DNA of 64,000 nucleotides from Streptomyces halstedii (GTDB lineage: Bacteria; Actinomycetota; Actinomycetes; Streptomycetales; Streptomycetaceae): positions 248,001-312,000 of the forward strand of contig JOAZ01000001.1 in NCBI GenBank assembly GCA_000720535.1, written 5' to 3'. This document shows positions 17,274 through 54,272 of the stretch, piece after piece. Within the stretch, counting starts at the first letter, position 1. Each line of letters opens with the position of its first letter. A program made the position numbers and the translations under genes. The notes below the pieces were generated by a model that made no database searches, was not told the DNA's origin, and saw nothing but the letters and a program-made list of their open reading frames with translations.

Positions 17274-17405
17274 GAACGGTCCTACCCCGCAAGCGCGTTC
17301 TCACGCGGTGGGGCGGGGTTCGCGCCGATCCCGGGAACTCGGAACCCGGCGGACGTGTTCGCGGTACAGTAATTTTCGTACGCGTTTCCAAATCGTTTCC
17401 GCAAC

Positions 17406-17657
17406 GATGGGAGAGCGATGAGCGCGATCGATCCCGCTGGGGTGAGGGAGCGGTCCACGCCGGTACCGGACGCCGGTTCGGCGGGGGAGCGGTGGGCGAG
17501 CCCTCCGGCCCCGAGACGGCTCTTCGCCCCCCGGCCTCCAGGGCGGCGCCTCGCTCGTACCGTCGTCCGCGCACGCCACCGGGGGCGAGGGCCGGCCGAG
17601 CGCGGCCGGCCACCCTTCGCCCCGGCCGATGGCCCCTCGGGTACCGCGGGCCGGTAG
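17406..17657 (+). pseudogene. truncated duplicate of the ABC transporter 5' end
   Basis: Bases 17406 to about 17490 match bases 9 to about 93 of the window with few mismatches, including the ribosome site and the start codon. The predicted peptide begins MSAIDPAGVRERSTP against MSAIDPAVARERSTP in the transporter. After about 22-25 codons similarity ends and the frame runs through GC-rich sequence to a TAG at 17655-17657. The rare TTA leucine codon of the intact gene is GTA here. It is a relic of a duplication or rearrangement and is unlikely to be functional. Confidence 0.75.
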
Positions 17658-36593: not shown

Positions 36594-36841
36594 GGTGCTG
36601 TGCCTCTCATTTCGCCGTGCCGACGGGACCTGGACGGAAACAGAGCGGGCCGCCAGCTTTACACGTGACAACGGGTGAGCGCTCCACTTCCGCGACAACA
36701 GGCGCCCCAGGAGCCCGAGTTGGGGCAGTCGCTCGGCGTGCCCGTGGAAAGCCGACGCGATCCCCACTCTCCGTCAGGTGTTCGTCACCACACGCGATAC
36801 GCTGAGCTGACCGCGCACCCTCCCGCCGGTCGCGAGCGCCG

Positions 36842-37108: not shown

Positions 37109-37238
37109 GGCTCCGGCCCTGACCGGTGGTGGGAACGAGGGGAGCGGGCCTCAGGGGCCCACCCGGCCACCACCCGGTCGCACGCACGTTCGTATGGCGC
37201 CCCAATAGGGCGGTCGAGGAACTACGTTGGGGGATCGA

Positions 37239-37844
37239 GTGGGAATCGATGTATTGGTGTCCGACGACCTGCACCTGTCCCGTTTCGCGCTCAGCGCACT
37301 GCTTGAGCGGCATGAGGAGATCCGAGTCGTCGGGTCGGTGGAGAGCAGTCTGGACGCGTTGGAGTTCGCCGAGCTGCACAGCCCGGACGTGGTGATCATC
37401 AGTTTCGAGGACGCGGACAGCGACACGATCGCGATCGCCGAGAAGATCGCGAGCCTTCCGGGGTGCCGGAGCATGCTGCTCGGCAGGGCGTTCACCCGGT
37501 CGGTCGTCCGTCAGGCCTTCGCCGCCGGGATCGGCGGCATGGTGGAGCGCAGCGTCCCTCCGCGCCAGTTCTTCGAGGCCATCCACCGGGTGCACCAGGG
37601 GGAGCGGGTGTTCGACGCGGAGTTGACGGTCGCCGCGCTGATCAACAGGGACTCCACCTTGACGCTGCGGGAGTTCTCGGTGCTGGAGCACGTGTCCCGG
37701 GGCGACACCGTGGTCGAGATCGCGGCGCGCCTGCATCTCTCCGAGGGGACCGTGCGCAACTACCTTTCGTCCATGGTGACAAAGCTGGGCGCGCGCAACC
37801 GGATCGACGCTTTACGGATCGCCCGGGACGCGCGGTGGATCTAG
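37239..37844 (+). CDS. LuxR/NarL-type regulator with degenerate receiver domain
   Basis: 201 residues: a receiver-like domain (1-120) and a C-terminal LuxR helix-turn-helix (about 140-195, EIAARLHLSEGTVRNYLSSMVTKL). The acidic pair is present (SDD, 8-10), but the phospho-acceptor Asp is Ser55 (DVVIIS) and the conserved Lys is replaced (GGMVER). It probably does not respond to phosphorylation and may instead sense a ligand, as atypical response regulators do. No histidine kinase is adjacent. A TTA codon at 37812 suggests bldA control. GTG at 37239 is preferred (GGGGG five bases upstream); TTG at 37227 with GAGGA is a real alternative. Probable activator of the operon that follows. Confidence 0.82.
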   Translation: MGIDVLVSDDLHLSRFALSALLERHEEIRVVGSVESSLDALEFAELHSPDVVIISFEDADSDTIAIAEKIASLPGCRSMLLGRAFTRSVVRQAFAAGIGGMVERSVPPRQFFEAIHRVHQGERVFDAELTVAALINRDSTLTLREFSVLEHVSRGDTVVEIAARLHLSEGTVRNYLSSMVTKLGARNRIDALRIARDARWI

Positions 37845-38568: not shown

Positions 38569-39540
38569 ATGCCGAACCGAGCTGTAGTCCCGCCCATTCC
38601 CTGGGGGGAAGTGGCGAGTTCCATCCAATTCATTCCCGCCGAGTACTCCCGTACGGACCAGCCGGAATCCGTCGCGCGGGAGATGCTGCGCTGCGCGTCC
38701 GTGGACATCGACAGGCTCGTCGACGCGGGGCTGCCGTTCGACCGCCGGGAGGGCGTGCGCCACTTCGACGTGAACGACCTGTACACCCTCGGCATGTACT
38801 CGAACAGCACCCGTACGCAGCCGGAGCTCGCGTTCCGCATGCTGTTCCGGTTCGCCGGGCGTCCGGTCGACGACCTGCTGCGCGACAAGGCGTGGGAATT
38901 CCGGGTCCAGCTGGAGTGCCCGGAATGCGACGAGGTCGCCCCCTGGCACTTCGAAGCACCTGACGTCGTCCGGTTCGGAGGGCGCCTGGAGGGCGGGGCC
39001 GCCCCGGAACCGAGCGCGGGGTCGGCCGAGTACGCGGCGACCGTCACCACGACGGGTGCGCGGACCCCACTGGTCTCCACCGAATTGCGCCGGCTGACCC
39101 ACGAGTACCTCGACGCCGGCTACCGGTGGCAGATGATCCCCGTCGCCATGCAGGCCGACTACGAACTGGTCCACGCTCTGGGGGCGACGAGCTGCATCGC
39201 GGCGAGCCTGCTGCTGGCCGAGCGCTTCCGGACGGCGGGCTACAAGGCCGAGGCGAAGCGGGGCTGGTTCTGCGGCGTGCTCGGTGGCGCGCTGGACCTG
39301 CCGCACGCCTGTGTGGAGGTCGAGGACGACGACGGCAGGCTCAAGACCGTCGACATCGCCAAGGCGCAGCTGGCCGCGCGGCTGTCGTCGGACACCGGGG
39401 ACTTCCAGGAGCTGTGCCTCGGGTCGATCTACAACAAGGTGATCCCGTCCACCGCTTCCGGAAACGCGTCTTTCGGCCACCACGCGTGCGGTTCACCGCT
39501 ACCGGCCCAAGTGCGCGCGGACATCCGGTCGGCGCGTTGA
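38569..39540 (+). CDS. transglutaminase-like protein, candidate aminoacyltransferase
   Basis: 323 residues. The C-terminal half has the layout of the transglutaminase/papain-like fold. It has Cys209 at the start of a helix (TSCIAASLLLAERF), His246 on a strand (PHACVEVE) and Asp262 on the next (TVDIA), giving a C-H-D triad. The N-terminal half (1-165) is unlike anything I recognise. Family knowledge: AdmF of andrimid biosynthesis is a transglutaminase homologue that forms an amide from carrier-bound thioesters. Inference: this protein moves an aminoacyl group from a carrier protein to an amine or hydroxylamine. It opens the operon, with GGAGGGG before its ATG. Hydrolysis or proteolysis are alternatives. 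Confidence 0.65.
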   Translation: MPNRAVVPPIPWGEVASSIQFIPAEYSRTDQPESVAREMLRCASVDIDRLVDAGLPFDRREGVRHFDVNDLYTLGMYSNSTRTQPELAFRMLFRFAGRPVDDLLRDKAWEFRVQLECPECDEVAPWHFEAPDVVRFGGRLEGGAAPEPSAGSAEYAATVTTTGARTPLVSTELRRLTHEYLDAGYRWQMIPVAMQADYELVHALGATSCIAASLLLAERFRTAGYKAEAKRGWFCGVLGGALDLPHACVEVEDDDGRLKTVDIAKAQLAARLSSDTGDFQELCLGSIYNKVIPSTASGNASFGHHACGSPLPAQVRADIRSAR

Positions 39541-39581
39541 GCTGAATTCTCGAAACACCCTGTGTGGAAGGACGAGTGAGA

Positions 39582-40463
39582 ATGGCAGTACGTGAGATCG
39601 AACCGGTCGTGCTCGAACTCGACCGGTTGGAGCAGCTGGCCGAGTCCGGCTACTACAACCCGTACACGATGTTCGACTGGCCCGACACCATCGAGCCCGA
39701 CAAGCCGTGGATGAGCGAGCACCTCACCACGCTGGGCGGCACGCCGATGTGGGACGAGCTGACGCGCGAGCAGCAGCTCGCGCTGACCCGGTTCGAGGCG
39801 ATCAACTTCTTCAGCCTCAACATCCACGGCATCCGCGAGCTGATGAGCGACGTCGTGATGCGCATCCACGAGAAGACCTACGCGGACGTCTCGGAGTTCC
39901 TCCACCACTTCATCGGTGAGGAGAACGAGCACATGTGGTTCTTCGCGCAGTTCTGCCTCCGCTACGGCGGCAAGCTGTACCCGGCGCAGCCGACGCTGAA
40001 GGCCGACTCGGTGGAGCACCTCTCGCCGATCGCCCGCGAGCTGATCGTCTTCGCGCGCATCCTCATCTTCGAGGAGATCGTCGACCACTACAACGCGTAC
40101 ATGGCGACCGACCAGACCCTCCCGCACATCGCCCGCGAGATCAACCGGGTGCACCACCAGGACGAGAGCCGGCACGTCGCGTTCGGCCGCATGGTCTTCA
40201 CCAACTTGCTCGGCCAGCTCGTCAAGCGCGACCCGGACGAGGCGCCCGTGGTCGCCGAGTACCTGGAGAACTACCTCCAGTACAGCATCGGCACCCTCTA
40301 CAACCCGGCCGCCTACCGCGACGCGGGCATCCCGGACGCGCTGGCGCTGCGCCGCAAGGCGCTGGCCCACCCCGTCCGGGTGGAGGCGCACGACCAGGTG
40401 CTGAAGCGGACGAGGAAGTTCCTGTCGAAGTCCGGCGTAGGCAGGGAAACGATCAAGCGATGA
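39582..40463 (+). CDS. AurF-type diiron N-oxygenase
   Basis: 293 residues, all-helical ferritin-like fold. The metal ligands are recognisable: Glu near 72, E114-xx-H117 (EENEH), Glu in FEEIVDHY (164/165) and H191-x3-E195-xx-H198 (HHQDESRH). The last two spacings equal those of AurF. AurF and CmlI oxidise arylamines to nitro compounds by way of hydroxylamines; relatives act on alkylamines. Here the aminotransferase-reductase fusion in the same operon would supply an alkylamine, so an alkylhydroxylamine or nitroalkane is the expected product. ATG at 39582 is preferred to an in-frame GTG 18 bases upstream because AAGGA lies about 9 bases before it. The carrier protein gene overlaps its stop. Confidence 0.85.
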   Translation: MAVREIEPVVLELDRLEQLAESGYYNPYTMFDWPDTIEPDKPWMSEHLTTLGGTPMWDELTREQQLALTRFEAINFFSLNIHGIRELMSDVVMRIHEKTYADVSEFLHHFIGEENEHMWFFAQFCLRYGGKLYPAQPTLKADSVEHLSPIARELIVFARILIFEEIVDHYNAYMATDQTLPHIAREINRVHHQDESRHVAFGRMVFTNLLGQLVKRDPDEAPVVAEYLENYLQYSIGTLYNPAAYRDAGIPDALALRRKALAHPVRVEAHDQVLKRTRKFLSKSGVGRETIKR

Positions 40464-40705
40464 CCGACCCCATGCAGGCGGTCCAGGAGTTCATCCTGGG
40501 CCGTAACCCCGCCCTCGACCGGGTGTCCGAGGACCTCGACCTGATCGACAGCAGGGCCATCAACTCGCTGGCGTTCGTCGAGTTCATCTTCCTGCTGGAG
40601 GAGCTGACGGGCGAGTCCATCGATCCGGAGGACCTGGATCTGGACGACTTCCGCACCCTCGACGCGCTGGAAGCACGATTCTTCAAGAAGGAAGCGGCGC
40701 GATGA
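40460..40705 (+). CDS. carrier protein 1 (amino acid carrier)
   Basis: 81 residues, four-helix carrier-protein pattern with the pantetheine Ser36 in the motif INSLAF, an Asn-Ser variant of the usual Asp-Ser-Leu. Coupled by overlaps to the diiron gene before and the aaRS-like ligase after, which identifies it as the probable acceptor for that ligase. In the known bacterial pairs of this kind the ligase loads glycine or alanine on the pantetheine arm. It would be modified by the PPTase encoded 3 kb downstream. Confidence 0.85.
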   Translation: MTDPMQAVQEFILGRNPALDRVSEDLDLIDSRAINSLAFVEFIFLLEELTGESIDPEDLDLDDFRTLDALEARFFKKEAAR

Positions 40706-41529
40706 CCACAGCGACCGACAACGGCCTGGGAGTTCTCGACGGCGGCCAGCTGCGGTTGCTGCGGGCGATCGACGGCGTGGTCCTGCGATGGGCCGACAGC
40801 TGGGGCGCCCCGGAGTTCCGGTTCCCGTTTCTGATGCGGTGTCAGGACCTCGACACCTTCGACTACTACGACAACTTCCCGCACCTGGGCCTCGCCGCGA
40901 CCCGGCTCGACCCGCAGCGTCTGGGCGGCCTGCTGGCCGAGACGCCCCGGCCGGTCGCGCAGATGCCGACCGAGGTCATGGAGCCGACCGCGTTCGCGCT
41001 GCCCTCGGCGGCCTGCTACTCGGTCTACCTGAACCTGGCCGGCTCGGAGCTGCCCGCCGAGGGAGCCCTGCGGACCACGGTCGGCACCTGCTTCCGCAAC
41101 GAGGAGCACTACCAGGGCCTCCAACGGCTGCTCGGCTTCTCCATGCGCGAGATCGTCTGCGTCGGACCGGAGGAGGTGGCGAAGAACCACCTGCTCCGCG
41201 CCAAGGACGTCGTGACGAAGCTGTGCGCCCAGCTCGGGCTGGACGTCCGGCTGGAGGTCGCCACCGACCCGTTCTTCGACAAGAACGGCGGCAAGGCCAA
41301 GATGCAGCGGCTGTTCCCGGTGAAGGAGGAGTTCGTCGTCGACGGCCTGGCGATCGGCTCCGTCAACTACCACCGGAACTTCTTCGGCGAGCGGTGCGAC
41401 ATCCGGGCCGGGGACGACACGGCGCACACCAGCTGCCTGGCCTTCGGCCTGGAACGCTGGGTGCACGCCCTGACCGCGCGGTTCGGCGGCACCGACGCCG
41501 CGGTGTCGGCGATCGAGAGCCTGAGCTGA
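40702..41529 (+). CDS. amino acid:[carrier protein] ligase, class II aaRS-like
   Basis: 275 residues, a SerRS-type catalytic core without any tRNA-binding arm. Motif 2 is FRNEEHYQG (131-139) and motif 3 is FGLERWVHAL. Cys105, Glu150 and Cys245 lie where the zinc ligands of the amino acid:carrier protein ligases are expected. These enzymes adenylate a small amino acid and transfer it to carrier-protein pantetheine rather than to tRNA. The preceding gene is the matching small carrier protein. In valanimycin biosynthesis a SerRS and seryl-tRNA supply the activated amino acid; this pair would do so without tRNA. The amino acid cannot be read from sequence; glycine or alanine is likeliest, serine possible. 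Confidence 0.88.
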   Translation: MTTATDNGLGVLDGGQLRLLRAIDGVVLRWADSWGAPEFRFPFLMRCQDLDTFDYYDNFPHLGLAATRLDPQRLGGLLAETPRPVAQMPTEVMEPTAFALPSAACYSVYLNLAGSELPAEGALRTTVGTCFRNEEHYQGLQRLLGFSMREIVCVGPEEVAKNHLLRAKDVVTKLCAQLGLDVRLEVATDPFFDKNGGKAKMQRLFPVKEEFVVDGLAIGSVNYHRNFFGERCDIRAGDDTAHTSCLAFGLERWVHALTARFGGTDAAVSAIESLS

Positions 41530-42533
41530 TGCGTGCCACGCTGGCCGGAGCGCTCGGCCTGGACGTGGCGCTGCTCCAGTCGGGCATGGGCGGCGTCGCG
41601 GGCGCGGAGCTGGCCTGCGCCGTGTCCGAGGCCGGCGCGGCGGGCTGTGTGGGCGGCTACAAGCTGGTGGGCGACGCGCTGTCGGCCGTACTCGGCCGGT
41701 TGACCGCCGGTACCGAACGGCCCGTCGGCGTGAACCTGATCCCGGAGGTGGTGGGGCCGGACGAGCTCGACCGCCAGGTGGCGCAGGTGCTCGACGAGAC
41801 GCCCCAGCGCGTGCACCTGTCGTTCTTCGGCATGCCCGAGGACGCGGTGCTCGACCGGGTCGTCGCGGCCGGCCGGGGCCTGGTGGTCCAGGTCGGATCC
41901 GTCGAGGACGGGACACACGCGGCCGGACGGGGGGCGGTCGTGGTGGCCCAGGGCACCGAGGCCGGCGGCCACCTCCTGGGTACCGCACGCCGCGACGACC
42001 TGGTCGCGGCCCTGCGCGACCGGCTGCCCGACGCCTGCCTCGTCGCCTCGGGCGGCATCGGCTCGCCCGGGGAGGCCGAGCGGGCACTCGCCGCCGGAGC
42101 CGACGGCGTCCTGCTGGGCACCGCCTTCGTCGTCGCGCACGAGTCGCGGGCCCACTCCCGCTTCAAGGCGGCGGTGACCGCCGCCGACGAGGCCGACACC
42201 GTGATCACCGACGTCTACGAGATCGGCTGGCCGGGCCGGCGGCACCGTGTCCTGGCGACCGCCGTCACCGCCGACCCCGGGCAGCCGAAGAATTTCATCG
42301 GCCGCACGGTGGTCGAGGGAAAGCCGTACCTGGTACCGCGCTTCAGCTCCGCGGTACCGACCGAAGCGACCAGCGGCCGGATCGAGGAGATGGCGATGTA
42401 CTGCGGCCGGTCCTGCGGCGACGTCTCCGAACAGCTCTCGGCGGCCGATGTCGTGGCCGCGTTCGCGCGTGTCCTGCCGGGCGCCGAGACCGTCAAGAAC
42501 CAGACAAGGATGGAAAGCAATGTCAGCCGATGA
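41529..42533 (+). CDS. nitronate monooxygenase-like flavoprotein
   Basis: 334-residue TIM-barrel FMN enzyme of the 2-nitropropane dioxygenase/NMO family. It has the QSGMGG start, the family motif VAQGTEAGGH, and the phosphate-binding SGGIGS and ADGVLLGTAF segments. NMOs oxidise alkyl nitronates to carbonyl compounds. Members of the same family (FabK) reduce enoyl-ACP. Next to an amine N-oxygenase, a role on a nitro or nitronate intermediate or in detoxification of over-oxidised product is attractive; a desaturation or enoyl-reduction role on the alkyl chain is the alternative. It is coupled to the ligase before (TGATG) and overlaps the hydrolase after by 14 bases. Confidence 0.85.
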   Translation: MRATLAGALGLDVALLQSGMGGVAGAELACAVSEAGAAGCVGGYKLVGDALSAVLGRLTAGTERPVGVNLIPEVVGPDELDRQVAQVLDETPQRVHLSFFGMPEDAVLDRVVAAGRGLVVQVGSVEDGTHAAGRGAVVVAQGTEAGGHLLGTARRDDLVAALRDRLPDACLVASGGIGSPGEAERALAAGADGVLLGTAFVVAHESRAHSRFKAAVTAADEADTVITDVYEIGWPGRRHRVLATAVTADPGQPKNFIGRTVVEGKPYLVPRFSSAVPTEATSGRIEEMAMYCGRSCGDVSEQLSAADVVAAFARVLPGAETVKNQTRMESNVSR

Positions 42534-43392
42534 GGCGCAGGACAACCACCACGACCTGAGCTACCGCGAGGACATCCCGCGCGTCCGCACCAGGGAAGGC
42601 GTCGAGCTCTACGCCGAGACCAACGGTGAGGGCGACATCACCGTCACCACGCTCAACAACTTCTTCTTCAGCGCCCCGTTCTGGCGTGAGTACACCGAGG
42701 AACTCGTCAAGCACTACCGCGTCCTGAGCTACGACCTCTGCAACCACGGGCAGTCCTCGCGGGTGGAGCAGGAGCCGACCTGGGAGGAGCACGCGGAGGA
42801 CCTGATCGGACTGCTCGACGCGCTGGGCATCGAGTCGACGTACCTGATCGGCACGTCGGCCTCCACCCAGCTCGCCCGGGACGTCGCGCTGGCCCACCCC
42901 GACCGGGTCAGGGGCATGGTGCTGGCCGGACCGGTCGTCGGTCCGCAGGGGATGCGGCGCCACCGCGGGCTCCAGCGCGCGTGGCTGCGGACGCTGAACA
43001 GCTACGGCATGCCCGAGCTGTACAGCCACATGTACCCCGAGGTGATCAGCACCGACATGAACGAGGAGACCGGCACGCCGGGCTTCCTCGGGCTGCGGGA
43101 GAGCTTCCTGGCGATGTCCACGGCCGAGGAGCTCAACAACGGACTGACACTCGCCCAGCAGGGCGACCCCAGCCCCGAGCTGCTGACCCGCGTCCAGACC
43201 CCGACGCTGATCGCCCTCGGCGACGACGACATCCTGCTCGGCCCGACGGCCGGCCAGGAACTGGCCGCGCTGTTCCCGAAGGGCCGTCTCGCGCTCATGC
43301 CGAAGGCCGGCCACGTGCCGTTCCTCGACGACCCCGAGGGTTTCCAGGAGATCGTCCGCAAGTTCGTGGACGAAGTGGAATCGGATGTCTGA
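42520..43392 (+). CDS. alpha/beta hydrolase, possible release enzyme
   Basis: 290 residues. The nucleophile elbow reads GTSAS, so the last Gly of GxSxG is Ser. The acid is in LGDDD and the His in AGHVPF. Oxyanion region NFFFS near residue 43. The closest broad family is 3-oxoadipate enol-lactonase-like hydrolases. In this operon it may release a product or intermediate from a carrier protein, or catalyse a non-hydrolytic rearrangement, as some hydrolase-fold enzymes do. ATG at 42520 is inside the end of the NMO gene and is preceded by AAGGATGGAAAG. Confidence 0.82.
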   Translation: MSADEAQDNHHDLSYREDIPRVRTREGVELYAETNGEGDITVTTLNNFFFSAPFWREYTEELVKHYRVLSYDLCNHGQSSRVEQEPTWEEHAEDLIGLLDALGIESTYLIGTSASTQLARDVALAHPDRVRGMVLAGPVVGPQGMRRHRGLQRAWLRTLNSYGMPELYSHMYPEVISTDMNEETGTPGFLGLRESFLAMSTAEELNNGLTLAQQGDPSPELLTRVQTPTLIALGDDDILLGPTAGQELAALFPKGRLALMPKAGHVPFLDDPEGFQEIVRKFVDEVESDV

Positions 43393-43660
43393 TCCGCGGG
43401 CCGAAGCCCGGCTGCGCATCCGTGCGTTGCTGGTGGACATCTTCGGCGGCGACCGGTTCGTCAGCGGTGTGCCGGACACCGCGTCGCTCCGTGAGGCGGG
43501 GGTGCCCTCCACCGCGCTGGTGAGCCTGCTGGTGGCGATGGAGGACGCGTTCGGCTTCGAATGGGACGACGAGGTCCGCCCCGAGGTGCTGCGCACGATC
43601 GACTCACTGGCGGGGCACGTGGTGGAGACGGGCGCGGTGGGGACAGCGGGTGGCCGCTGA
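43385..43660 (+). CDS. carrier protein 2, atypical pantetheine motif
   Basis: 91 residues. Predicted helices and an acidic second helix fit a carrier protein. The modified Ser would be Ser42 in GVPSTALVSL, where Pro-Ser-Thr replaces Asp-Ser-Leu. It overlaps the hydrolase before and the PPTase after. Its partner is not clear. The unusual motif may mean a dedicated partner, or that this copy is not pantetheinylated. Confidence 0.65.
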   Translation: MSDPRAEARLRIRALLVDIFGGDRFVSGVPDTASLREAGVPSTALVSLLVAMEDAFGFEWDDEVRPEVLRTIDSLAGHVVETGAVGTAGGR

Positions 43661-44216
43661 GCCGCGTCCTCCCGCGGGCGTCGCGCCGGAGCCGGTGATC
43701 GAGTGGCATCCGGTGCCGTGGCCCCACGGACCGGCCCAGCAGTCGGCGGCGGGCCGCCACGCGGCCGCCGCGGCCCTGTCCTCGGCCGGCTCGGCCGAGC
43801 GGACGGTGCCCCGCGACCCGCACGGCCGGCCGTGCTTCCCGCGGGGCTTCCCCGGCTCCATCTCCCACACCGCCCACCTGGCGGTCGCGGTGGTGGTCCC
43901 CGGTGCCGAGGCCGTGGGCGCCGACATCGAGAGCGCGGCCGTCACCGCCCGCATGGCGGCGTTCGTCCTCGGCGAGCGGGAGCGGCGCACGCTGCTCCCG
44001 CCCGCCGGGGAGTACAGCCCCCGTGAGCTGTTCGCCGCCAAGGAAGCGGCCTACAAGGCCATGAACGGCGCCGGCACACCGGGTGAGTTCCTGTTCTGGC
44101 GGATCGGACTCAGCCGTTCCGGCGGGACGTTGACCGCGTCGTACCGCGGCGTGCGCGTACCGCTGTGGATCCACTCGGAGGCGGGCCACGCGTTCGCCGT
44201 GGCGATACGGCGTTGA
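43650..44216 (+). CDS. 4'-phosphopantetheinyl transferase, Sfp-type
   Basis: 188 residues. The three conserved blocks are visible: GSISHT (substrate and CoA binding), VGADIE (magnesium-binding Asp/Glu) and FAAKEAAYKA (catalytic Glu/Lys). It transfers phosphopantetheine from CoA to carrier-protein serines. A dedicated PPTase in the operon suggests that the three small carrier proteins are poor substrates for the housekeeping enzyme. GTG start overlapping the carrier protein stop. Confidence 0.9.
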   Translation: MAAEPRPPAGVAPEPVIEWHPVPWPHGPAQQSAAGRHAAAAALSSAGSAERTVPRDPHGRPCFPRGFPGSISHTAHLAVAVVVPGAEAVGADIESAAVTARMAAFVLGERERRTLLPPAGEYSPRELFAAKEAAYKAMNGAGTPGEFLFWRIGLSRSGGTLTASYRGVRVPLWIHSEAGHAFAVAIRR

Positions 44217-44286
44217 ATTCCGCGGTCCGCCTCGCCTTCCCGGGCCGGCACCCGGCCGACGGAACGTATCGAATGGGGAAGACGCA

Positions 44287-44547
44287 ATGAACCAAGAAAT
44301 CCTTGAGGTCGTCGATGAACTGTTCCGTCGCGGACTGCAGGTCTCTGAGATCGACATCGACGTCCCCCTCGTAGATTACGGCCTCGATTCCATTCGCTCC
44401 ATCAACCTGGTGGTCGACATGGAAGCCGCGTTCGACGTGCGGATATCGGATGAACAGGCGGCCTCGATGGAGACGCTGCGTGACGTCGTGGACCAGGTCA
44501 CCGCGTTGGTGACCGTGCGGGCCGGGCAAGGAGAAGGTGACGCATGA
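44287..44547 (+). CDS. carrier protein 3 (acyl carrier)
   Basis: 86 residues with a canonical motif GLDSIRSI (pantetheine Ser35). GGGGAAG precedes its ATG. It directly precedes and overlaps the aminotransferase/acyl-ACP reductase gene, with the FAAL next, so it is the likely fatty-acyl carrier on which the FAAL loads and from which the reductase draws. A 70-base gap to the PPTase is the only break inside this part of the operon. Confidence 0.88.
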   Translation: MNQEILEVVDELFRRGLQVSEIDIDVPLVDYGLDSIRSINLVVDMEAAFDVRISDEQAASMETLRDVVDQVTALVTVRAGQGEGDA

Positions 44548-47270
44548 ACGTCGATTCCGATTTCGAGCGGTACAGCCGGCCGGAGCTGGCCAGGCTGTTC
44601 CGCGCCCTGCGCCTGGACGTCACCTACCGGTCCGGCCAGGGCGACCATCTGACCAGGGAATCACCGGGCGCGGGAGACCGACCCGAGGCCGCCGACCAGG
44701 TGCTCGACCTGGTCGGCGGCGCGGGTTCGTCGCTGCTCGGGCACAACCACCCGGAGCTGCTCGACGTGGCCCGCCGGTGCTTCGACGAGCGGATCCCGTT
44801 CAACGCCCAGGTCAGCGTCCGCCCCGGAGCGGCCGAACTGGCGCGGCGGCTGTCGGAGATCGTGGGATCCACCACCGGCGCGAGCTATGTGGTCACCCTC
44901 GGCAGCACCGGGGCGGACGCGGTGGAAGCCGCGGTGAAGCACGCCACGGTCGAGCACCGGCGGCGGCTGGGCGCCCTCCAGGAGGACGTCGAACTCTCCC
45001 TGCGGCGGGTACGGCGGGACGCCGGAGCGGACGCCGTGTGCGCCGACGGGCCCGCGGCCGGACGCCGCTGCGCGGAGGTGCTGGGCGAGACCCTCGACCG
45101 GATCACCGAGATGCGGGAGACCGACCCGGTCTTCGTCTCGCTGCGCAACGCCTTCCACGGCAAGTCGGCCGGTGCCGGCACCCTGACGCACGGCGGCAAC
45201 ATACCCGCGGACCTGCACGTCCCGGGACCGCGGCACCGGCGTCTGCACGACTGGACGCCCGAGGCGGTGGTGAGCGCCCTCGACTCCGAACGCGTCGCGG
45301 TCCACACGGTCCGCGTGGACGCCGCCGGAGTGCCCCACTCGGCCGTACGCCACCTGTCGCCGGTCGCCGCCTGCTTCGTCGAGCCCATCCAGGGCGAGTC
45401 CGGGGTGCACGAGGTCCCCGTGGAGACGCTGGCCGCCCTGCGTGAACTCTCCGACCGGCACGACGCGGCCCTGGTGTTCGACGAGATCCAGTGCGGCATG
45501 GGCCGTACGGGCACCTTCCTGGCCTCCGAGGGCTCCGGCGTGGTCGCCGACTACTACCTGTTCTCGAAGTCCCTCGGCGGCGGGCTGGCCAAGGTCTCGG
45601 CCTTCCTGGTCGACGAGAAGCGGTACGTCACGGAGTTCGGCCGCCACCACACCTCGACCTTCGCCGACGACGACTTCTCGTCCCGGATCGCGACGGCCGC
45701 GGTGGAGCTCGCCCTCTCCTACCGCGACCGCGTCGTCGAGACGGGCGCACGCCTGCGCCGGCGGCTGGTGGAGGTCGCGGAGCGGTGGCCGGACTCCGTC
45801 GTCGAGGTGCGCGGACGCGGCCTGCTCCTGGGCGTCGAGTTCGTGCTGCCCCGGCCCGACTCCGGACTGCTGCGGGAGGCGATCGACTCCGAGTCGCTCG
45901 GCTACCTGATCGCGGGCCGTCTGCTGCACACCCACGGCATCAGGGTCATCCCCACCCTGTCCGCCCCCACCACGGTCCGTGTCCAGCCGTCCGCCCTGCT
46001 CCAGGCCGCCGACGTGGACCGTATCGCCGTGGCCTTCGACGACGTCGCCGGTCTGCTCTCCCGGGGTGACTACGCGACCCTGCTCGCCCACCTGACGGTC
46101 CCGGCCACCGAGGAGTGGAAGCCGAGGCAGCACGTCCCGCTGCCCCGCCGCGACTGGCCCGCGCCCACCGGCGGGGAAGCGGACGTGCCGCGCGTCGCGT
46201 TCCTGGCCAACATCGACAGCCCCGGCAAACTGGGCTCCCTGTCGCCGGAACTGGCCGCCTGGTCGGACGCGCAGTGCTCGGCGGCGCTCGACCGGATGTG
46301 GGGCGAGCTGGACCCCTTCGAGGTCGTCCGCCACCGCGTCACCTCCGAGAGCGGGGAAGAGGCCGAAGTCGTCATGGTGGCGGCGCCGTTCACCGCCGCC
46401 CAGGCCAACGCCGCGCTGCGGGCGGGCCACGGGGCGTGGCTGCGCCGCACGGTGCTCGACGCGGTGGACCTGAGCGTCTCGCTCGGCGCCCAGGCCATCG
46501 GCCTCGGCGGTCACACCTCCATCGTCACCAACGCCGCGCGGGACGTGGTCGAGCACGACATCAAGGTGACCTCCGGCAACTCGCTGACCGCCGCCTGCGC
46601 CTACGACCTGCTCCGCCTCCAACTGGCCGAGACCGACGGCGAACGCCGTGTCGGGCTCGTCGGCGCCATCGGCAACATCGGCGCGGTGATGGCCGAACTC
46701 ATCGCCCCGCACTGCGACTCGATGGTGCTGGTCGGCCGGCCCGGTTCGGCGCGGCGGCTGGAGGCGGTGGCCGCCCGGCTGCCCGGCCGGGTGGACGTGC
46801 GGATAGCCGAGGACCTCGACGCCCTGCGGGACTGCCCGATCGTGGTCAGCGCGACCAACTCGGCGGACCCGGTGATCCTCCCCGGACACCTCGCCGGTGA
46901 GCAGAAGGTCCTCGTCTGCGACCTCGCGGTCCCCGGTGACGTGCACCCGGCGGTGGCCGGACTGTCGAACGTCACGCTGGTCTCCGGTGGCCGGATCCAG
47001 CTCCCCGGCGTACAGACCCCGCACTTCCCGGGGCTCACACTGCCGCCGGGCATCCTCTACTCCTGCATGGCCGAAACGATGCTGCTCGGCTTCGAGCCCG
47101 GCACACCGAGCCCCTCCTACGGCGGCCTCTCCTCGAAGGGAGTGCTGGCCGCCCGGGACCTGGCCGCCCGGCACGGCTTCCTCCCCGCCCGGATCGTCTC
47201 CGACGACGTCTCGGTACAGCCGTGGATCACCGACCGGTTCAGCCGCACTATCGAGGAGCACATCCGATGA
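44544..47270 (+). CDS. class III aminotransferase fused to acyl-ACP reductase
   Basis: 908 residues in two parts. Residues 1 to about 530 are a class III PLP aminotransferase: VFDEIQCGMGRTG and the PLP Lys342 in FSKSLGGG. Residues about 555-908 resemble the cyanobacterial acyl-ACP reductase (AAR): LGGHTSIVTN, VTSGNSLTA and the NADPH loop GAIGNIG near 704. Inference: the C-terminal part reduces a fatty-acyl-ACP to the aldehyde, and the N-terminal part aminates it to a primary alkylamine without releasing the aldehyde. FAAL and ACP genes lie on both sides with overlapping codons. The fusion gives a self-contained fatty acid-to-amine catalyst. A thioester reductase of the SDR type is ruled out by the AAR-like motifs. 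Confidence 0.85.
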   Translation: MNVDSDFERYSRPELARLFRALRLDVTYRSGQGDHLTRESPGAGDRPEAADQVLDLVGGAGSSLLGHNHPELLDVARRCFDERIPFNAQVSVRPGAAELARRLSEIVGSTTGASYVVTLGSTGADAVEAAVKHATVEHRRRLGALQEDVELSLRRVRRDAGADAVCADGPAAGRRCAEVLGETLDRITEMRETDPVFVSLRNAFHGKSAGAGTLTHGGNIPADLHVPGPRHRRLHDWTPEAVVSALDSERVAVHTVRVDAAGVPHSAVRHLSPVAACFVEPIQGESGVHEVPVETLAALRELSDRHDAALVFDEIQCGMGRTGTFLASEGSGVVADYYLFSKSLGGGLAKVSAFLVDEKRYVTEFGRHHTSTFADDDFSSRIATAAVELALSYRDRVVETGARLRRRLVEVAERWPDSVVEVRGRGLLLGVEFVLPRPDSGLLREAIDSESLGYLIAGRLLHTHGIRVIPTLSAPTTVRVQPSALLQAADVDRIAVAFDDVAGLLSRGDYATLLAHLTVPATEEWKPRQHVPLPRRDWPAPTGGEADVPRVAFLANIDSPGKLGSLSPELAAWSDAQCSAALDRMWGELDPFEVVRHRVTSESGEEAEVVMVAAPFTAAQANAALRAGHGAWLRRTVLDAVDLSVSLGAQAIGLGGHTSIVTNAARDVVEHDIKVTSGNSLTAACAYDLLRLQLAETDGERRVGLVGAIGNIGAVMAELIAPHCDSMVLVGRPGSARRLEAVAARLPGRVDVRIAEDLDALRDCPIVVSATNSADPVILPGHLAGEQKVLVCDLAVPGDVHPAVAGLSNVTLVSGGRIQLPGVQTPHFPGLTLPPGILYSCMAETMLLGFEPGTPSPSYGGLSSKGVLAARDLAARHGFLPARIVSDDVSVQPWITDRFSRTIEEHIR

Positions 47271-49012
47271 CCGCGTCCCGACCGCGCCACCCGAGCATCC
47301 TGCACGCGTTACTGGCACAGGCGGAACGCGGCTCCGACGCCTCGGGGGTGACGCTGATCCCCGAACCGGGCCAGGAGGAGACCCTCCGCTACGACGTCCT
47401 CGTCGAGGCCGCGTCGCGGTGCGCGGCCGCCCTCGCGGACCGGGGGGTCGGCCGCGGCGACCGGGTGGTGCTGTGCCTGCCCACGGGCGCGCAGTTCATC
47501 ACGGCCTTCTTCGGGGCCCAACTGCTCGGTGCCATGCCGACGGCCATCGCCGTACCCCTGCGCTTCGGGGGCGCCGCGGGCTTCGAGGGCCAGCTGAAGG
47601 AACTCGTCGGCTACCTGCGGCCGACCGCGGTCATCACCGTGGCGGCCGTGATCGAGGGCCTCCCCGATCTCGGCGGCACCACGCTGGTCGACGGCGCGGA
47701 GCTGTACGCGCGCGCCACCGCCGCCGACGCCCCGGCGCACCCCGTCCGCCTGCCGGACGGCGACGACCTGGCGTTCATCCAGTGCACCTCGGGATCGACG
47801 GGCCGGCCCAAGGGCGTCATGATCTCGCACGCCAACCTCACCGCCAACTGCGAACAGATCACCCGCGCCGTCGGCTGGACGCACCGGGACACCACGGTCA
47901 ACTGGGTGCCCCTCTACCACGACCTGGGCCTGTTCTCGGGCATCCTGTGCCCGGTCTACTCGGGCGGGAACGCGGTGCTCATGCCGCCCGCCCGGCTCCT
48001 GCGCGCGCCCGCCGAGTGGCTGCGCCACATCAGCGCGCACCGCGGATCGGTGACGGCCGCCCCGAACTTCGCCCTCGGCTACGTCACCGCCCGCGCCCGC
48101 GACGAGGAGCTGGAGGGCGTGGACCTGTCGAGCTGGCGCATCGGGCTCTGCGGAGCCGAACCCATCCAGCCCGGCACCGTGCGGCGCTTCGTCGAACGCT
48201 TCACCCGGTGGGGCCTGCCCCCCGGCGCGATCACCCCCGCCTACGGCATGGCCGAGGCCTCCCTGGTCATCACGGCCACACAGCCGGGCGAGCCGCTCGT
48301 GGTCGATACGGTCGACCGGCAGGGCCTCGTCGCCGAGGCACGGGTGACCGACACCGACCCGGACGCCCCGGACGCGGTGCGGATCGTGGACTGCGGAGCG
48401 CCGCTGGACGGCAACGAGGTACGGATCGTGGACGGCGACGGCCGGGTCCTGGACGAGGACCGGGTCGGGCACGTCCAGTTCCGCGGCCCCGCGCGCACGG
48501 TCGGGTACTTCGAACTCCCGGAGGTGACCGCCGAGTCGGTCGACGCCCCGGACTGGTGGAAGACCGGTGACATCGGCTACCTGCGGGACGGCCGCCTGCG
48601 GATCACCGGCCGCGCCAAGGACCTGGTCATCATCCGTGGAGCCAACTACTTCCCGACCGACTTCGAACAGGCCGCGGAGACGGTGCCGGGCGTCCGCCTC
48701 GGCTCGGTGATCGCGGTCGGACACCGGCACGAGGAGGCCGACTCGGAGGAACTCCACCTCGTGGTCGAGACCGAGCTGGACCCCGCGGAGCACGAGGCGC
48801 TGCGCCGTTCCGTCCAGGCCGCCGTCAGCTCGCGGACCGGTGTCCGGGCCGCGGCGATCCACCTGGTCCCCAAGCGCAGCGTGCCCAAGACCACCAGTGG
48901 GAAGGTGCAGCGCTCCAAGGCCCGGGAGATGTTCGTCGAAGGATGGTCACCGGGCGGGCCGGACGACCTCCCGCCGGCGGCCGGCACGGACGACCGAGCC
49001 GTACGGCCGTAG
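47267..49012 (+). CDS. fatty-acyl-AMP ligase (FAAL), second copy
   Basis: 581 residues. Adenylate-forming motifs CTSGSTGRPKGV, NWVPLYHDLG (FAAL-type), YGMAEASL, KTGDIGY and C-terminal TTSGKVQRSK. It activates a free fatty acid and should load it on carrier protein 3. ATG overlaps the stop of the aminotransferase-reductase gene. Codon 15 is a rare TTA (47309-47311), so this operon also depends on bldA at the protein level. It resembles the FAAL at 9.9 kb in architecture, but the two lie in different operons. Confidence 0.9.
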   Translation: MTASRPRHPSILHALLAQAERGSDASGVTLIPEPGQEETLRYDVLVEAASRCAAALADRGVGRGDRVVLCLPTGAQFITAFFGAQLLGAMPTAIAVPLRFGGAAGFEGQLKELVGYLRPTAVITVAAVIEGLPDLGGTTLVDGAELYARATAADAPAHPVRLPDGDDLAFIQCTSGSTGRPKGVMISHANLTANCEQITRAVGWTHRDTTVNWVPLYHDLGLFSGILCPVYSGGNAVLMPPARLLRAPAEWLRHISAHRGSVTAAPNFALGYVTARARDEELEGVDLSSWRIGLCGAEPIQPGTVRRFVERFTRWGLPPGAITPAYGMAEASLVITATQPGEPLVVDTVDRQGLVAEARVTDTDPDAPDAVRIVDCGAPLDGNEVRIVDGDGRVLDEDRVGHVQFRGPARTVGYFELPEVTAESVDAPDWWKTGDIGYLRDGRLRITGRAKDLVIIRGANYFPTDFEQAAETVPGVRLGSVIAVGHRHEEADSEELHLVVETELDPAEHEALRRSVQAAVSSRTGVRAAAIHLVPKRSVPKTTSGKVQRSKAREMFVEGWSPGGPDDLPPAAGTDDRAVRP

Positions 49013-49092
49013 CGGGCACAGGCTCCGGACGGCCGGGGTGCTGATCCCCCGCACACCCCGGCCGTCCGGCCCCGCAGACAGAGGGAGCACCC

Positions 49093-50598
49093 ATGAGCAC
49101 GTCCCCGTCCGCCCCCACCCCACGACTCCAGGAAGGCGGACTCTCCCGCAGCCTCACCACACCCAAGATCGTCTTCCTGATCGTCGCGGCCGCCGCGCCC
49201 CTCTCCGCCATGGTCGGCACCGTGCCGCTGGCGTTCGCCCTGGGCAACGGACCCGGCGTGCCCGCCATGTTCGTCTTCGCGGGCCTGACCCTGATGTGCT
49301 TCTGCGTCGGCTACGCCGCGATCAGCCGCACGGTGGTCAACGCGGGCGGGTTCTACACCTACATCTCGTGCGGTCTGGGCCGGCCGCCCGCGGTGGGCGG
49401 CGGTCTCGTCGCCGTGATCGCGTACAACGCCGCCTCCGTCGGACTGCTCGGCGCGTTCGCCTACTTCGCCCGGCTCGTCGCCGCCTCGCACGGGCTGGAC
49501 GTCCGCTGGGAGATATGGGCGGCGCTCGGCCTGCTGGTGGTCGGCGCGCTGGGATACCGCCAGATCGACCTGAGCGTCCGGGTGCTCGGCGTGGCCATGC
49601 TCTGCGAGGTGGGCATCCTCCTGCTCCTGGCCGTGGCCGTGCTGATCCGGCACGGCCACGCCGCGCTGCCCACCGTGTCGTTCTCGCCGCACACCCTCAC
49701 CGGCGCGGGCGTCGGCGTCACGATGATGTACGCGTTCATCTCGTTCATCGGGATCGAGTCGGCCGCGCTCTACGGGGAGGAGGCGCACGACCCGGAGCGC
49801 AGCGTGCCGCGCGCCACCTACGTCTCCGTCTCGCTCATCGCCCTCTTCTACGGGTTCATCAGCTGGATCGCGGTGGGCGCCGTCGGCCCCGGCCACATCA
49901 AGGACGTGGCCGGCAGCCAGCTGGGGGACCTCTTCTTCCGGCTGAGCGACGACTACCTCACGGCCACCCTCACCACCGTCATGCAGGTCCTGCTGTGCCT
50001 GAGCCTCTTTGCCAGCTGGCTGGCCCTGCACAACGCCGCGAACCGCTACCTGTTCGTCCTGGGCCGCGAAGGGGTGCTGCCCGGTGCCCTCGGAGCGGTG
50101 CACGCCCGGCACGCCTCGCCGCACCGGGCCAGCCTCACCCAGACGGCGTTCAGCGTGCTCACCGCCACGGCGTTCGCGCTCGCCGGGCTCGACCCGTACC
50201 TCGGGATCACCACGAGCATGCTGGGCCTGGGCACCCTGGGCATCGTCTTCCTCCAGGCCGTGGCGTGTGTCTCGGTCATCGGCTACTTCTGGCGCAGACC
50301 GGACCGGCACTGGTGGCGCACCGCGCTCGCGCCGGCACTCGGCTTCGCCGGGCTCGCCGCGGGCACCTCCCTGGTCGTGACCCACTTCGACACCATGACC
50401 GGTACGGACAACCCGGTGGTGGGCGCCCTGCCCTGGCTGATCGTGGCCGCGGCGGTGCTCGGTCCCGTGTACGCCGTGTGGATCCGCTCCGCGCACCCCG
50501 AGCGCTACGCGCGCCTGGCGGGGGCCGACGAGCGGTCTGAGGAACCCGTCGAGCCCGCCGGACGGGACGTCCCCGACCGTGTGTCGGCCGGGCGTTGA
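49093..50598 (+). CDS. APC-family amino acid/amine permease
   Basis: 501 residues with about twelve hydrophobic segments. The first helix region contains the unwound-helix motif common in the APC superfamily (AAAAPLSAMVG), and FISFIGIESAALYGEEA matches the sixth-helix region. It would exchange or import an amino acid or amine, or export the product. It is 80 bases after the FAAL with its own GAGGGAG site and probably belongs to the same transcript. The terminator at 50601 closes the operon. Confidence 0.85.
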   Translation: MSTSPSAPTPRLQEGGLSRSLTTPKIVFLIVAAAAPLSAMVGTVPLAFALGNGPGVPAMFVFAGLTLMCFCVGYAAISRTVVNAGGFYTYISCGLGRPPAVGGGLVAVIAYNAASVGLLGAFAYFARLVAASHGLDVRWEIWAALGLLVVGALGYRQIDLSVRVLGVAMLCEVGILLLLAVAVLIRHGHAALPTVSFSPHTLTGAGVGVTMMYAFISFIGIESAALYGEEAHDPERSVPRATYVSVSLIALFYGFISWIAVGAVGPGHIKDVAGSQLGDLFFRLSDDYLTATLTTVMQVLLCLSLFASWLALHNAANRYLFVLGREGVLPGALGAVHARHASPHRASLTQTAFSVLTATAFALAGLDPYLGITTSMLGLGTLGIVFLQAVACVSVIGYFWRRPDRHWWRTALAPALGFAGLAAGTSLVVTHFDTMTGTDNPVVGALPWLIVAAAVLGPVYAVWIRSAHPERYARLAGADERSEEPVEPAGRDVPDRVSAGR

Positions 50599-50639: not shown

Positions 50640-51380
50640 TCACCCGGCCGTGGAGCCCGCCACCCGCGGGCCCCCGCCGGGCGCCGCGTCGCTCAGCGGT
50701 GCCGTCGAGGTGGCCTGGGCGAGCAGCCCGTCGACGAAGGCCCGGAGCCCCTGGGGGTAGGTGTCCTGCCAGGCCAGGCCCGGCCACTGGTCGGCGAGCG
50801 CGGTCATGCGCGGCAGCCGGGACCCGCCGTGGTCGGCGGTGAAGGCGTCCACGTCGGGGCTCTCGTCCTCCGCCCGCTCCCGGGCGGAGTGGGCCCGGAC
50901 GAGGATCTCGCCGACCGTGTAGTACCAGATGTTGCGGTAGATGTGGACGGCCTGCTCGGGCGTGCATCCGTGGTCGATGGCCCCGGCCACCATGGTCTCG
51001 ACCAGCCACAGGGCCGAGTCGCCGAGCCGGGCGAGGAAGCCGTCGGTGGTGAGGACCTCCGCCGCCCACGGCCAGGCCGCGAGGGCGTCGTGCACCGCGG
51101 TGGCGGCCGCGACGATGCGGTCCCGGGGCTCGGGGGGCAGGTCGGGGTGCGGGATCTGTTCCGCGTACTCGTGGATCAGCAGGAACAGCAGATCCTCTTT
51201 GTCCCGTACGTGGTGGTACAAGGTCGTCGCGCCGATGCCGATCTCGCCGGCCAGCCGGCGGATGGTCAGTTTCTCCCAGCCGTTCTGGTCGATGAGCCGG
51301 CGGGCCGCGGCCAGGATCTGCGTGCGGGACGTCACGGGGGGGCGGCCGACGCGGCCGTGCGGTGCATTGGTTCGGGACAC
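50640..51380 (-). CDS. TetR-family regulator, second copy
   Basis: 246 residues: N-terminal HTH (ILAAARRLI, LAGEIGIGATTLYHHVRDKEDL) and C-terminal domain with IWYYTVGE, shared with the TetR at 24.8 kb. GTG start. It is divergent from an MFS gene 147 bases away, the usual arrangement for a repressor of a drug exporter. A palindrome GAACATGTTC in the gap overlaps the start region of the MFS promoter and is the likely operator. Confidence 0.88.
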   Translation of the reverse strand: MSRTNAPHGRVGRPPVTSRTQILAAARRLIDQNGWEKLTIRRLAGEIGIGATTLYHHVRDKEDLLFLLIHEYAEQIPHPDLPPEPRDRIVAAATAVHDALAAWPWAAEVLTTDGFLARLGDSALWLVETMVAGAIDHGCTPEQAVHIYRNIWYYTVGEILVRAHSARERAEDESPDVDAFTADHGGSRLPRMTALADQWPGLAWQDTYPQGLRAFVDGLLAQATSTAPLSDAAPGGGPRVAGSTAG

Positions 51381-51527: not shown

Positions 51528-53006
51528 GTGACTAACACGGAATCAGCAAGTGGGGAATCGGCCATCCAGCGGGGTGCTCGCCCGGGGCTCATCCTCGCCG
51601 CGGTGGCCGTCGTACAGTTCATGGTGTCGTTGGACCTGTCGGTCGTGAACGTCGGTCTCCCGGAGATAGGCAAGGGCCTCGGCTTCAGTGAGTCGGGCCT
51701 GACCTGGGTGATCCACGCCTACGCCCTCACCTTCGGAGGGTTACTCCTCCTGGGCGGCAAGGTCGCCGACCGGTACGGCCAGAAGCGGATCCTGCTGATC
51801 GGGCTGCCCCTGTTCGGACTCGCCTCCCTGGCCGGCGGACTCGCCCAGGAACCCGGTCATCTGGTGGCCGCCCGTGCCGTGCAGGGCGTCGGGGCCGCCG
51901 CGCTGGCCCCGGCCGCGCTGGCACTGCTCGCCTCGACCTTCCCCGGCGGCAAGGAGCGCGTGAAGGCGTTCGGCGTCTGGAGCGCGATGAACGCCGCCGG
52001 TGGCGCCCTCGGCGTCCTGATCGGCGGTCTGCTCACCGAGTACGCGGGCTGGGAATGGGTGATGTTCGTCAACGTCCCCATCGTCGCCGTCGCCCTGCTG
52101 CTGGCCGTGCGCGGTGTCGCCCCCGACCGGCCCGTGGCGAGCCGCGGTGCCCCGGACGTGCTCGGCGCCATCCTCGCCACGGCGGGCATGGGCCTGCTCG
52201 TCTTCGGCGTGGTCCGCACCGACCGGCATCCGTGGGGCTCCGCGGAGACGCTGACGACCCTGGCCGTCGCCGTCGTCCTGCTGGCCGCCTTCCTCTACGT
52301 CGAGCGCACCACCAGCCGCGACCCGCTGATCCGGCTCGGCCTGTTCAGCAACCGCTCGGTCGCCGGTGCCAACGCCTTCACCCTGCTGCTCGGCGGCGCC
52401 ATGGCCTCGGCCTTCTACTTCGTGTCCCTCTACCTCCAGCGGGTGCTGGGCAGCGGGGCGGCCAAGACAGGTGTGGAGTTCCTGCCGTTCGCGTTCGGTG
52501 TGGTCATCGGCTCCGTCCTCGCCGTCAAGTTCGGCTACCGCTTCGCGGCCCGCAACATCCTGCTGGCCGGTGGCGTGCTGATGGCGATCGGCTTCGCCTG
52601 GTTCGGCATGCTGAGCGCCGACGGCTCCTTCGCCGTGGACGTCCTCGGCCCGTCGATCGTCAGCAGCATCGGTATCGGGCTCTGCCTCGCACCGGCCGTC
52701 TCCCTCGCCACCTCCGGTGTCGCGGAACACGAGACGGGCAGCGCCTCCGGCCTGCTCAACAGCACCCGGCAGATCGGCGCCTCCCTCGGCCTGGCGGCCC
52801 TGGGTACCGCCGCCAACAACCGTACCGACGGCGTCCCCACCGCGGAGGCCCTCAACGACGGGTACGCGTTCGGTATGACGATCGGCGCCGGGGTCGTGAT
52901 CGTCGGCCTGGTCATCGCCTTCACCATGCTGCCGCGCACCGGACCGCAGGTCACGGCGGACGCGGCGGCGCCCGAGGGCGGCGACCTGCTCCCCGAGCGG
53001 GACTGA
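51528..53006 (+). CDS. MFS drug exporter, DHA2 family, first copy
   Basis: 492 residues with about 14 hydrophobic helices. Typical DHA2 features: first-helix LDLSVVNVGLP, the loop GGKVADRYGQKR, and helix-five GALGVLIGG. Proton-driven export of a toxic product is likely. GTG start at 51528 is chosen since the N-terminal helix starts about 20 residues later and upstream sequence includes the promoter. It contains one TTA codon at 51741-51743. Controlled most probably by the divergent TetR. Confidence 0.88.
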   Translation: MTNTESASGESAIQRGARPGLILAAVAVVQFMVSLDLSVVNVGLPEIGKGLGFSESGLTWVIHAYALTFGGLLLLGGKVADRYGQKRILLIGLPLFGLASLAGGLAQEPGHLVAARAVQGVGAAALAPAALALLASTFPGGKERVKAFGVWSAMNAAGGALGVLIGGLLTEYAGWEWVMFVNVPIVAVALLLAVRGVAPDRPVASRGAPDVLGAILATAGMGLLVFGVVRTDRHPWGSAETLTTLAVAVVLLAAFLYVERTTSRDPLIRLGLFSNRSVAGANAFTLLLGGAMASAFYFVSLYLQRVLGSGAAKTGVEFLPFAFGVVIGSVLAVKFGYRFAARNILLAGGVLMAIGFAWFGMLSADGSFAVDVLGPSIVSSIGIGLCLAPAVSLATSGVAEHETGSASGLLNSTRQIGASLGLAALGTAANNRTDGVPTAEALNDGYAFGMTIGAGVVIVGLVIAFTMLPRTGPQVTADAAAPEGGDLLPERD

Positions 53007-54116: not shown

Positions 54117-54272
54117 GAGCAAGCCCCTTCGTGTGTCGTCGGCCCTGGCGGCGGGGCGGGTGCCACCGCCGCGCGTCGGCGTCATCTGCCCCGGATGCTG
54201 TGCCGTTGTGCCGGAAGGCACCACCCGGCAGGCCCCTCGTGCCGGATAACGACATCAACTAGGCTCCCGGGG

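Follow-up and report, generated by a model that had tools for sequence, protein, structure and literature searches.

This study concerns a 64,000-nucleotide stretch of the Streptomyces halstedii genome (contig JOAZ01000001.1, positions 248,001 to 312,000; host genome size 7.74 Mb), referred to below as the window, and more precisely 12 genes, labelled A to L, which occupy positions 38569-50598 and all lie on the + strand. These genes probably make up a two-module cluster, in which A-H would represent the denitrification branch of a glycine-nitronate pathway and I-J-K would provide a fatty alkylamine, protein A joining the products of the two modules. The core of the A-H cassette is well supported. 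The sequences themselves show the gene content, the conserved residues, the linkage of B, C, and D, the NMO/methyltransferase split and the swapping of second modules. The glycine, nitronate and denitrification steps would follow published precedent, and we infer the amide step and the N-alkyl glyoxylamide-type product. Papers cited by PMC identifier were available in part, and statements resting on them refer to those parts.

Organization of the cluster

The 12 genes are as follows.

A, 38569..39540, +: transglutaminase/arylamine N-acyltransferase (NAT)-fold Cys-His-Asp protein, proposed amide synthase
B, 39582..40463, +: ferritin-like diiron N-oxygenase, AurF family (PF11583, 120 bits)
C, 40460..40705, +: carrier protein of the glycine cassette (PP-binding, 20.9 bits)
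D, 40702..41529, +: aminoacyl-tRNA synthetase (aaRS)-like amino acid:carrier protein ligase, with glycine as its probable substrate by analogy (aaRS-like match below the Pfam cut-off)
E, 41529..42533, +: nitronate monooxygenase (NMO)-like flavoprotein (PF03060, 116 bits)
F, 42520..43392, +: alpha/beta hydrolase, candidate thioesterase or acyltransferase (PF00561, 75 bits)
G, 43385..43660, +: second small carrier protein (NF005480, 29.8 bits, and PP-binding, 18.1 bits, both below cut-off)
H, 43650..44216, +: 4'-phosphopantetheinyl transferase (PPTase; PF01648 and PF17837)
I, 44287..44547, +: acyl carrier protein (ACP) of the fatty-amine module (PF00550, 44 bits)
J, 44544..47270, +: N-terminal class-III aminotransferase fused to a C-terminal acyl-ACP reductase (Aminotran_3, 167 bits)
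K, 47267..49012, +: fatty acyl-AMP ligase (FAAL), AMP-binding family (nearest PDB entry 3pbk, 1e-80)
L, 49093..50598, +: APC amino-acid/amine permease (PF13520, 102 bits)

Intergenic gaps are 41 bp for A-B, -4 bp for B-C and C-D, -1 bp for D-E, -14 bp for E-F, -8 bp for F-G, -11 bp for G-H, 70 bp for H-I, -4 bp for I-J and J-K, and 80 bp for K-L. The overlaps of 1-14 bp within B-H and of 4 bp within I-K thus define two tightly coupled blocks, and the 70-bp gap between H and I is the site where relatives swap the second module. Genes A-H were found by tblastn in identical order in 8 of 20 fetched relatives. In each of the 27 closest named loci (defined below), which belong to five actinobacterial orders, E comes after B, C, and D; the gene set is thus not a chance assembly. 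A preliminary description of this stretch had listed most of these genes, and all the enzymes that it named are indeed encoded, along with further carrier proteins and the APC permease. It had counted an ACP and one more carrier protein, both of which exist, but three (C, G, and I) are actually encoded.

Linkage of the diiron oxygenase to a carrier protein and a ligase

Two sets of loci were compared. Matches to D were found in 105 of 297 Streptomycetaceae genomes, and the 20 best-scoring of the 149 D matches other than the window's own, all from this family, form a synteny set, on which Pfam was run for one member per gene family. The named-genome set consists of the best 80 of 219 confirmed B relatives, among which the 27 loci whose B reaches at least 80% are hereafter the closest loci. 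The two sets share several organisms and are therefore not independent samples. L-numbers are labels of fetched loci.

Genes B, C, and D occur together in 20/20 loci picked by D, and D is present in 79 of the 80 named stretches picked by B. The settings in which the trio is found are quite different:

A-H with the fatty-amine module: L035, L036, L038
A-H with an APC permease and a pyridoxal phosphate (PLP)-dependent decarboxylase: L034, L037
A-H with a type I polyketide synthase (PKS): L039-L041
trio with genes for a condensation domain, an agmatine-deiminase-like protein and a beta-eliminating lyase: L043-L045 (and, for the first two, L049)
trio with NMO, MOSC, aminotransferase and inositol-phosphatase genes: L046, L047, L052, L053
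trio with PPTase, methyltransferase and SAM-synthetase genes: L048, L050, L051
trio in a separate setting: L042

As B, C, and D are kept together across these settings, B appears to act on a carrier-bound amino acid. The diiron enzyme would thus be tied to this substrate and not to an alkylamine, and it is probably not an alkylamine N-hydroxylase. Seven residues of B (E72, E114, H117, E164, H191, E195, and H198) are invariant in 21 sequences and match by motif all seven ligands of ferritin-like diiron oxygenase (FDO) N-oxygenases listed in the accessible part of PMC13061610, a paper whose Dob3 diazo analogy was drawn on for this ligand list only.

Among NCBIfam models, D comes closest to the amino acid-[ACP] ligase (PRK07080 equivalog) but, at 128 bits, stays far under its cut-off (357). 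Protein D also matches Bll0957 (PDB 3mey, E 8e-23), a homologous class II aaRS-like domain in which the same Cys, Glu, and Cys are aligned, although D has diverged. These residues (C130, E150, and C245 in D), which we take to be the metal ligands of the amino acid:carrier protein ligase family, are invariant in 21 sequences. Homology with Bll0957 therefore supports the earlier proposal that an amino acid is activated on a carrier protein.

The preliminary description had also proposed that the diiron enzyme oxidizes the alkylamine, following the logic of valanimycin and other azoxy pathways. According to this scenario, which we regard as very improbable, N-hydroxylation of the alkylamine would be followed by coupling to the carrier-bound amino acid and rearrangement into an azoxy, hydrazide or hydroxamate lipid. 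Both an alkylamine module and a carrier-bound amino acid are encoded, recalling the amine and activated amino acid of the valanimycin and azodyrecin clusters, and B has every N-oxygenase ligand. However, the association of B with C and D persists in loci devoid of J: only 13 of the 27 closest loci carry J, which is missing from the fetched stretch of the other 14 (L060, L062, and L075 being short contigs) and from all 53 remaining loci, whereas B and D are together in 79/80. Furthermore, the valanimycin and azodyrecin clusters, as described in the accessible parts of PMC11705231 and PMC9379638, possess tRNA-activated serine, a flavin N-hydroxylase and VlmO/VlmB, whereas Pfam scans of the cluster and of ten genes around it recognized no VlmH/VlmR-type N-hydroxylase. 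With no N-hydroxylase gene recognized among these and B linked to C-D rather than to J, the azoxy reading was set aside.

Other arrangements of these genes were observed. A second aaRS-like ligase gene lies within the Nonomuraea soli cassette (L072, 11981-12808), and two loci on proteobacterial plasmids (L167 and L168) carry a diiron gene and an NMO gene. The Tistrella mobilis plasmid locus also has an aaRS-like ligase gene, and the Agrobacterium vitis plasmid locus a PPTase gene.

A fork between nitronate monooxygenase and methyltransferase

In published glycine-nitronate pathways, as far as the accessible parts of PMC9967187 and PMC11035981 describe them, carrier-bound glycine is oxidized by a diiron oxygenase and the nitronate intermediate then meets one of two fates, O-methylation (enteromycin) or denitrification by an NMO, the latter branch releasing nitrite (PMC11035981). 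PMC9967187 credits this chemistry to He & Ryan 2021 (Nat. Chem. 13, 599). From these second-hand descriptions, the enteromycin carboxamide and cryptic denitrification cassettes share with the window a carrier-bound glycine system with a diiron oxygenase, followed by a methyltransferase or an NMO: the window has the diiron gene, the carrier, the ligase and the NMO, but it adds A, F, G, and H, as well as an adjoining fatty-alkylamine module. Similarly, in the akazaoxime/A-76356 cluster of Micromonospora, a diiron oxygenase has been proposed to N-oxygenate glycine on a carrier (PMC9967187, accessible part). There, however, glycine is loaded by a nonribosomal peptide synthetase (NRPS) and is followed by leucine and a PKS unit, whereas the putative operon A-L has an aaRS-like ligase and no NRPS.

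We scored this fork in the 80 named loci, within 6 kb and on the same strand. An NMO gene is present in 38 loci, an LCM-family methyltransferase gene in 31, neither in 11 and both in none; even when the whole fetched stretch is considered, NMO and LCM-family methyltransferase genes are found together in 0/80 loci. The window belongs to the NMO class: E is present, and the sole LCM-family methyltransferase among the ten scanned flanking genes lies ~13 kb away on the other strand. This methyltransferase (53238-54224) was considered as a nitronate O-methyltransferase and rejected, as it shows 34-40% to three cassette methyltransferases and has no match above 150 bits in the 80 named loci. The methyltransferase class includes Streptomyces achromogenes NRRL B-2120 (L116; B 51%, D 44%), which carries the carrier protein and methyltransferase genes. 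The enteromycin species is S. achromogenes according to the accessible part of PMC11035981, L116 being another strain of it.

The place of E in the cassette bears on a further alternative, in which a nitronate (nitroacetyl) or oxime stage, instead of a glyoxylyl group, would be moved to the amine, E being a side or detoxifying enzyme. Enteromycin-class products retain the N-O group (PMC9967187, accessible part) and A could take any C2 thioester. However, E abuts D, overlaps F, and is found in 27/27 closest loci, and H148 of its QGxEAGGH motif is invariant in all 39 sequences aligned. We therefore consider this alternative improbable.

A divergent cassette was observed in Solihabitans fulvus (L114), with an A homologue at 34% and B at 50%; no NMO or LCM methyltransferase gene was found there.

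Exchange of the second module among relatives

The 27 closest loci, from five orders, form a single clade (98) in the B tree. Gene A is present in 26 of them (L054 begins at B) and E in all 27, while the neighbouring module differs: 13 loci have J, five a PKS, three a PLP decarboxylase, and six none of these (L055, L060, L062, L069, L075, and L080; the absence of J is hard to judge in L060, L062, and L075, which are short contigs). The nearest relative of the L037 decarboxylase is histidine decarboxylase (208 bits, below the cut-off of 305), and an APC permease like L also adjoins decarboxylase-type cassettes.

Several loci deserve mention in their own right. S. echinatus carries two A-H cassettes in one genome, one beside a PKS (L056) and the other beside a decarboxylase (L063). 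A 737-kb linear plasmid of Streptomyces sp. NBC_01431 (L166) carries the cassette together with genes for an APC permease, a decarboxylase and beta-ketoacyl-ACP synthase III (KAS III). The complete A-K set is present in the plant pathogen S. scabiei 87.22 (L059). In L080, mevalonate-pathway genes (1464-8825), a KAS III gene and a LytB/IspH-like gene (16266-17585) flank the cassette, as does a LytB/IspH-like gene in L069 (16386-17738); such neighbours may be the source of an isoprenoid acceptor or confer protection from an inhibitor of IspH. Finally, L055 has aminotransferase, KAS III and nitric oxide synthase genes near its cassette, which is of the A-H type; the nitric oxide synthase oxygenase gene (4693-5949; 517 bits) precedes gene A by ~3 kb. 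The nitric oxide synthase and mevalonate/IspH neighbours were each seen in one or two loci and are not generalized here.

The L055 neighbourhood fits an alternative in which the useful output of the cassette would be nitrite or reactive nitrogen species, nitrosating an amine or coupling it through an N-N bond, with glyoxylate as waste. The NMO does free nitrite in the published branch (PMC11035981, accessible part). We nevertheless find this alternative unlikely: the nitric oxide synthase gene occurs in one locus only, K, the sole AMP-binding enzyme of the operon, looks like a FAAL, so that no diazotase candidate was recognized, and the PPTase, second carrier and Cys-His-Asp acyltransferase would be superfluous for nitrite production.

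We tentatively suggest, with somewhat more doubt than confidence, that A-H could be a portable 'warhead' cassette that makes an electrophilic two-carbon acyl unit from glycine held on a carrier and caps whichever acceptor the neighbouring module provides (fatty amine, histamine-like amine, PKS/NRPS chain or isoprenoid). The products would then form an undescribed compound family, represented here by N-alkyl glyoxylamides, in at least five actinobacterial orders.

The fatty-amine module

The proposal that the FAAL, the ACP and the aminotransferase-reductase fusion convert a fatty acid into an alkylamine is supported by Pfam and PDB matches of I, J, and K. The best PDB match of K is a fatty acyl-adenylate ligase (3pbk, E 1e-80), which assigns K to this class by nearest structure, and 6 of the 19 PDB matches listed are named fatty-acid-AMP or adenylate ligases. 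The N-terminal half of J is closest to CrmG in PDB comparisons, and K342, in its PLP-lysine motif, is invariant in 13 sequences. Its C-terminal part, an NAD-binding reductase according to Pfam, matches PigE (4ppm, 1e-18) and the cyanobacterial long-chain acyl-ACP reductase (AAR; 6jzq, 3e-05), and C841 aligns with a Cys of AAR, presumably the catalytic one. Protein J thus combines reductase and aminotransferase domains alike to those of PigE (prodigiosin) and of the cyanobacterial reductase, but its domain order is reversed relative to PigE and it scores far under the PigE equivalog model (NF053554; 280 bits, cut-off 850).

Full-length J homologues (77% or more) were detected in 4 of the 297 Streptomycetaceae genomes, all adjoining the cassette, the next-best match being at 37%. 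Five of nine close cassettes are without J. The threshold for counting J was 300 bits with half coverage. In L071, J is present and no close K is.

Protein A, a candidate amide synthase

The preliminary description had recognized a transglutaminase-like Cys-His-Asp protein, which conserved residues and predicted fold bear out. None of the residues C209, H246, and D262 varies among the 29 aligned sequences, nor in an alignment of nine. The window protein has no Pfam match, and PF01841 matches 6 of the 29 homologues (best 8e-05), the window protein not being among them. An AlphaFold2 model built from 29 sequences reaches a pLDDT of 90.2 (49.8, a poor model, with nine sequences). In Foldseek searches, its best match is 3isr (1.9e-05) with a low TM-score of 0.35-0.36, and NATs and geldanamycin amide synthase match more weakly. 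Given these low TM-scores, the fold call is based jointly on E-value, Cys-His-Asp residues and PF01841 matches. A profile of A had no match among PDB sequences up to E 1.

NATs and amide synthases transfer acyl groups from thioesters to amines, and A is a plausible amide synthase that would join a C2 unit to an amine. By its description in the accessible part of PMC6772006, the closthioamide transglutaminase CtaJ is comparable, its suggested role being to link an amine with acyl groups held on a carrier.

Proposed pathway

In the pathway that we favour, D would load glycine onto carrier C, B would oxidize the amino group of glycyl-C to an aci-nitro (nitronate) thioester, and E would convert the latter into a glyoxylyl-carrier and nitrite. 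H would turn the carriers into their holo form, and F may edit or shift the acyl group, perhaps onto G. In the second module, K would activate a fatty acid onto ACP I and J would reduce the fatty acyl thioester to an aldehyde, then transaminate it to an alkylamine. Finally, A would move the C2 unit from its carrier to the amine, yielding an N-alkyl glyoxylamide or a derivative.

Several observations weigh against this pathway. On the B tree (77 rows; L098, L108, L122, and L126 dropped because of stop codons in the matched segment), the NMO/methyltransferase split needs a single change, indicating an old fork that reflects mainly inheritance and not many repeats. A Fisher test over 53 loci (p 9e-6) takes no account of kinship. 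The window-type B sequences stand apart from the methyltransferase/enteromycin-like clade, with a long branch of 1.3 changes per column and ~50% identity, so that the reaction of B could differ from the enteromycin-type one. Protein E scores equally against FabK-type reductases and NMOs (NCBIfam and PDB), which, together with the deep divergence of the two groups of B, leaves room for different chemistry. The score of D is far below its NCBIfam cut-off (128 vs 357), and glycine would be its substrate by precedent. The fork holds for LCM-family methyltransferase genes close by: L046 has an NMO gene and an LCM-like gene ~8 kb away on the other strand, the window also has an LCM-like methyltransferase gene farther off on the other strand, and the Tistrella NMO gene adjoins a class I methyltransferase gene. 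Furthermore, F and G have no fixed step in the pathway.

Results from the trees also weaken the modular picture. Module labels need seven changes on the B tree and five on a B+D+E tree (25 rows; L073, L075, and L080 dropped, again because of stop codons in the matched segment), against a mean of 7.4 for shuffled labels, with values as low in 3 of 200 shufflings. Modules were thus exchanged several times, but not freely, and PKS rows fall mostly in one clade. In addition, no amine source was recognized among the scanned part of the genes around cassettes located beside PKS/NRPS and mevalonate genes.

The statement in the preliminary description that no described cluster has exactly this set was not contradicted by our literature search, in which no description of the full A-K set was found (subscription papers being mostly outside the search), although the core cassette has already been described; for the fatty-amine partner module, no published description was found. 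The cluster thereby offers a testable role for cryptic glycine-nitronate denitrification cassettes, whose purpose we did not find stated in the accessible parts of the sources, and it connects such cassettes with fatty-amine genes and with an uncharacterized transglutaminase-fold enzyme. If our reading is true, genome mining with A combined with B-C-D-E as a handle would retrieve, from many actinobacteria and among them the plant pathogen S. scabiei, small reactive metabolites of one family.

Flanking genes

The following genes surround the cluster.

37227..37844, +: LuxR/response-regulator-type regulator, probably cluster-associated (GerE, 55.6 bits)
50640..51380, -: TetR regulator, cluster edge (PF00440)
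51603..53006, +: MFS transporter, possible exporter (PF07690, 168 bits)
53238-54224, -: LCM-family methyltransferase, ~13 kb from the cassette on the opposite strand

Directly upstream, on the - strand (29908-36767), are a single-module NRPS (TubC_N, C, A, MT, PCP, TE) and then a saccharopine-dehydrogenase-like gene. Homologues of F also occur in a neighbouring clade at 40-42% (L042, L081-L083, and L130). Eleven of the 27 closest loci have a homologue of the LuxR-type regulator, with 64-82% identity, and the sequence cluster of the MFS transporter is also represented in other cassette loci.

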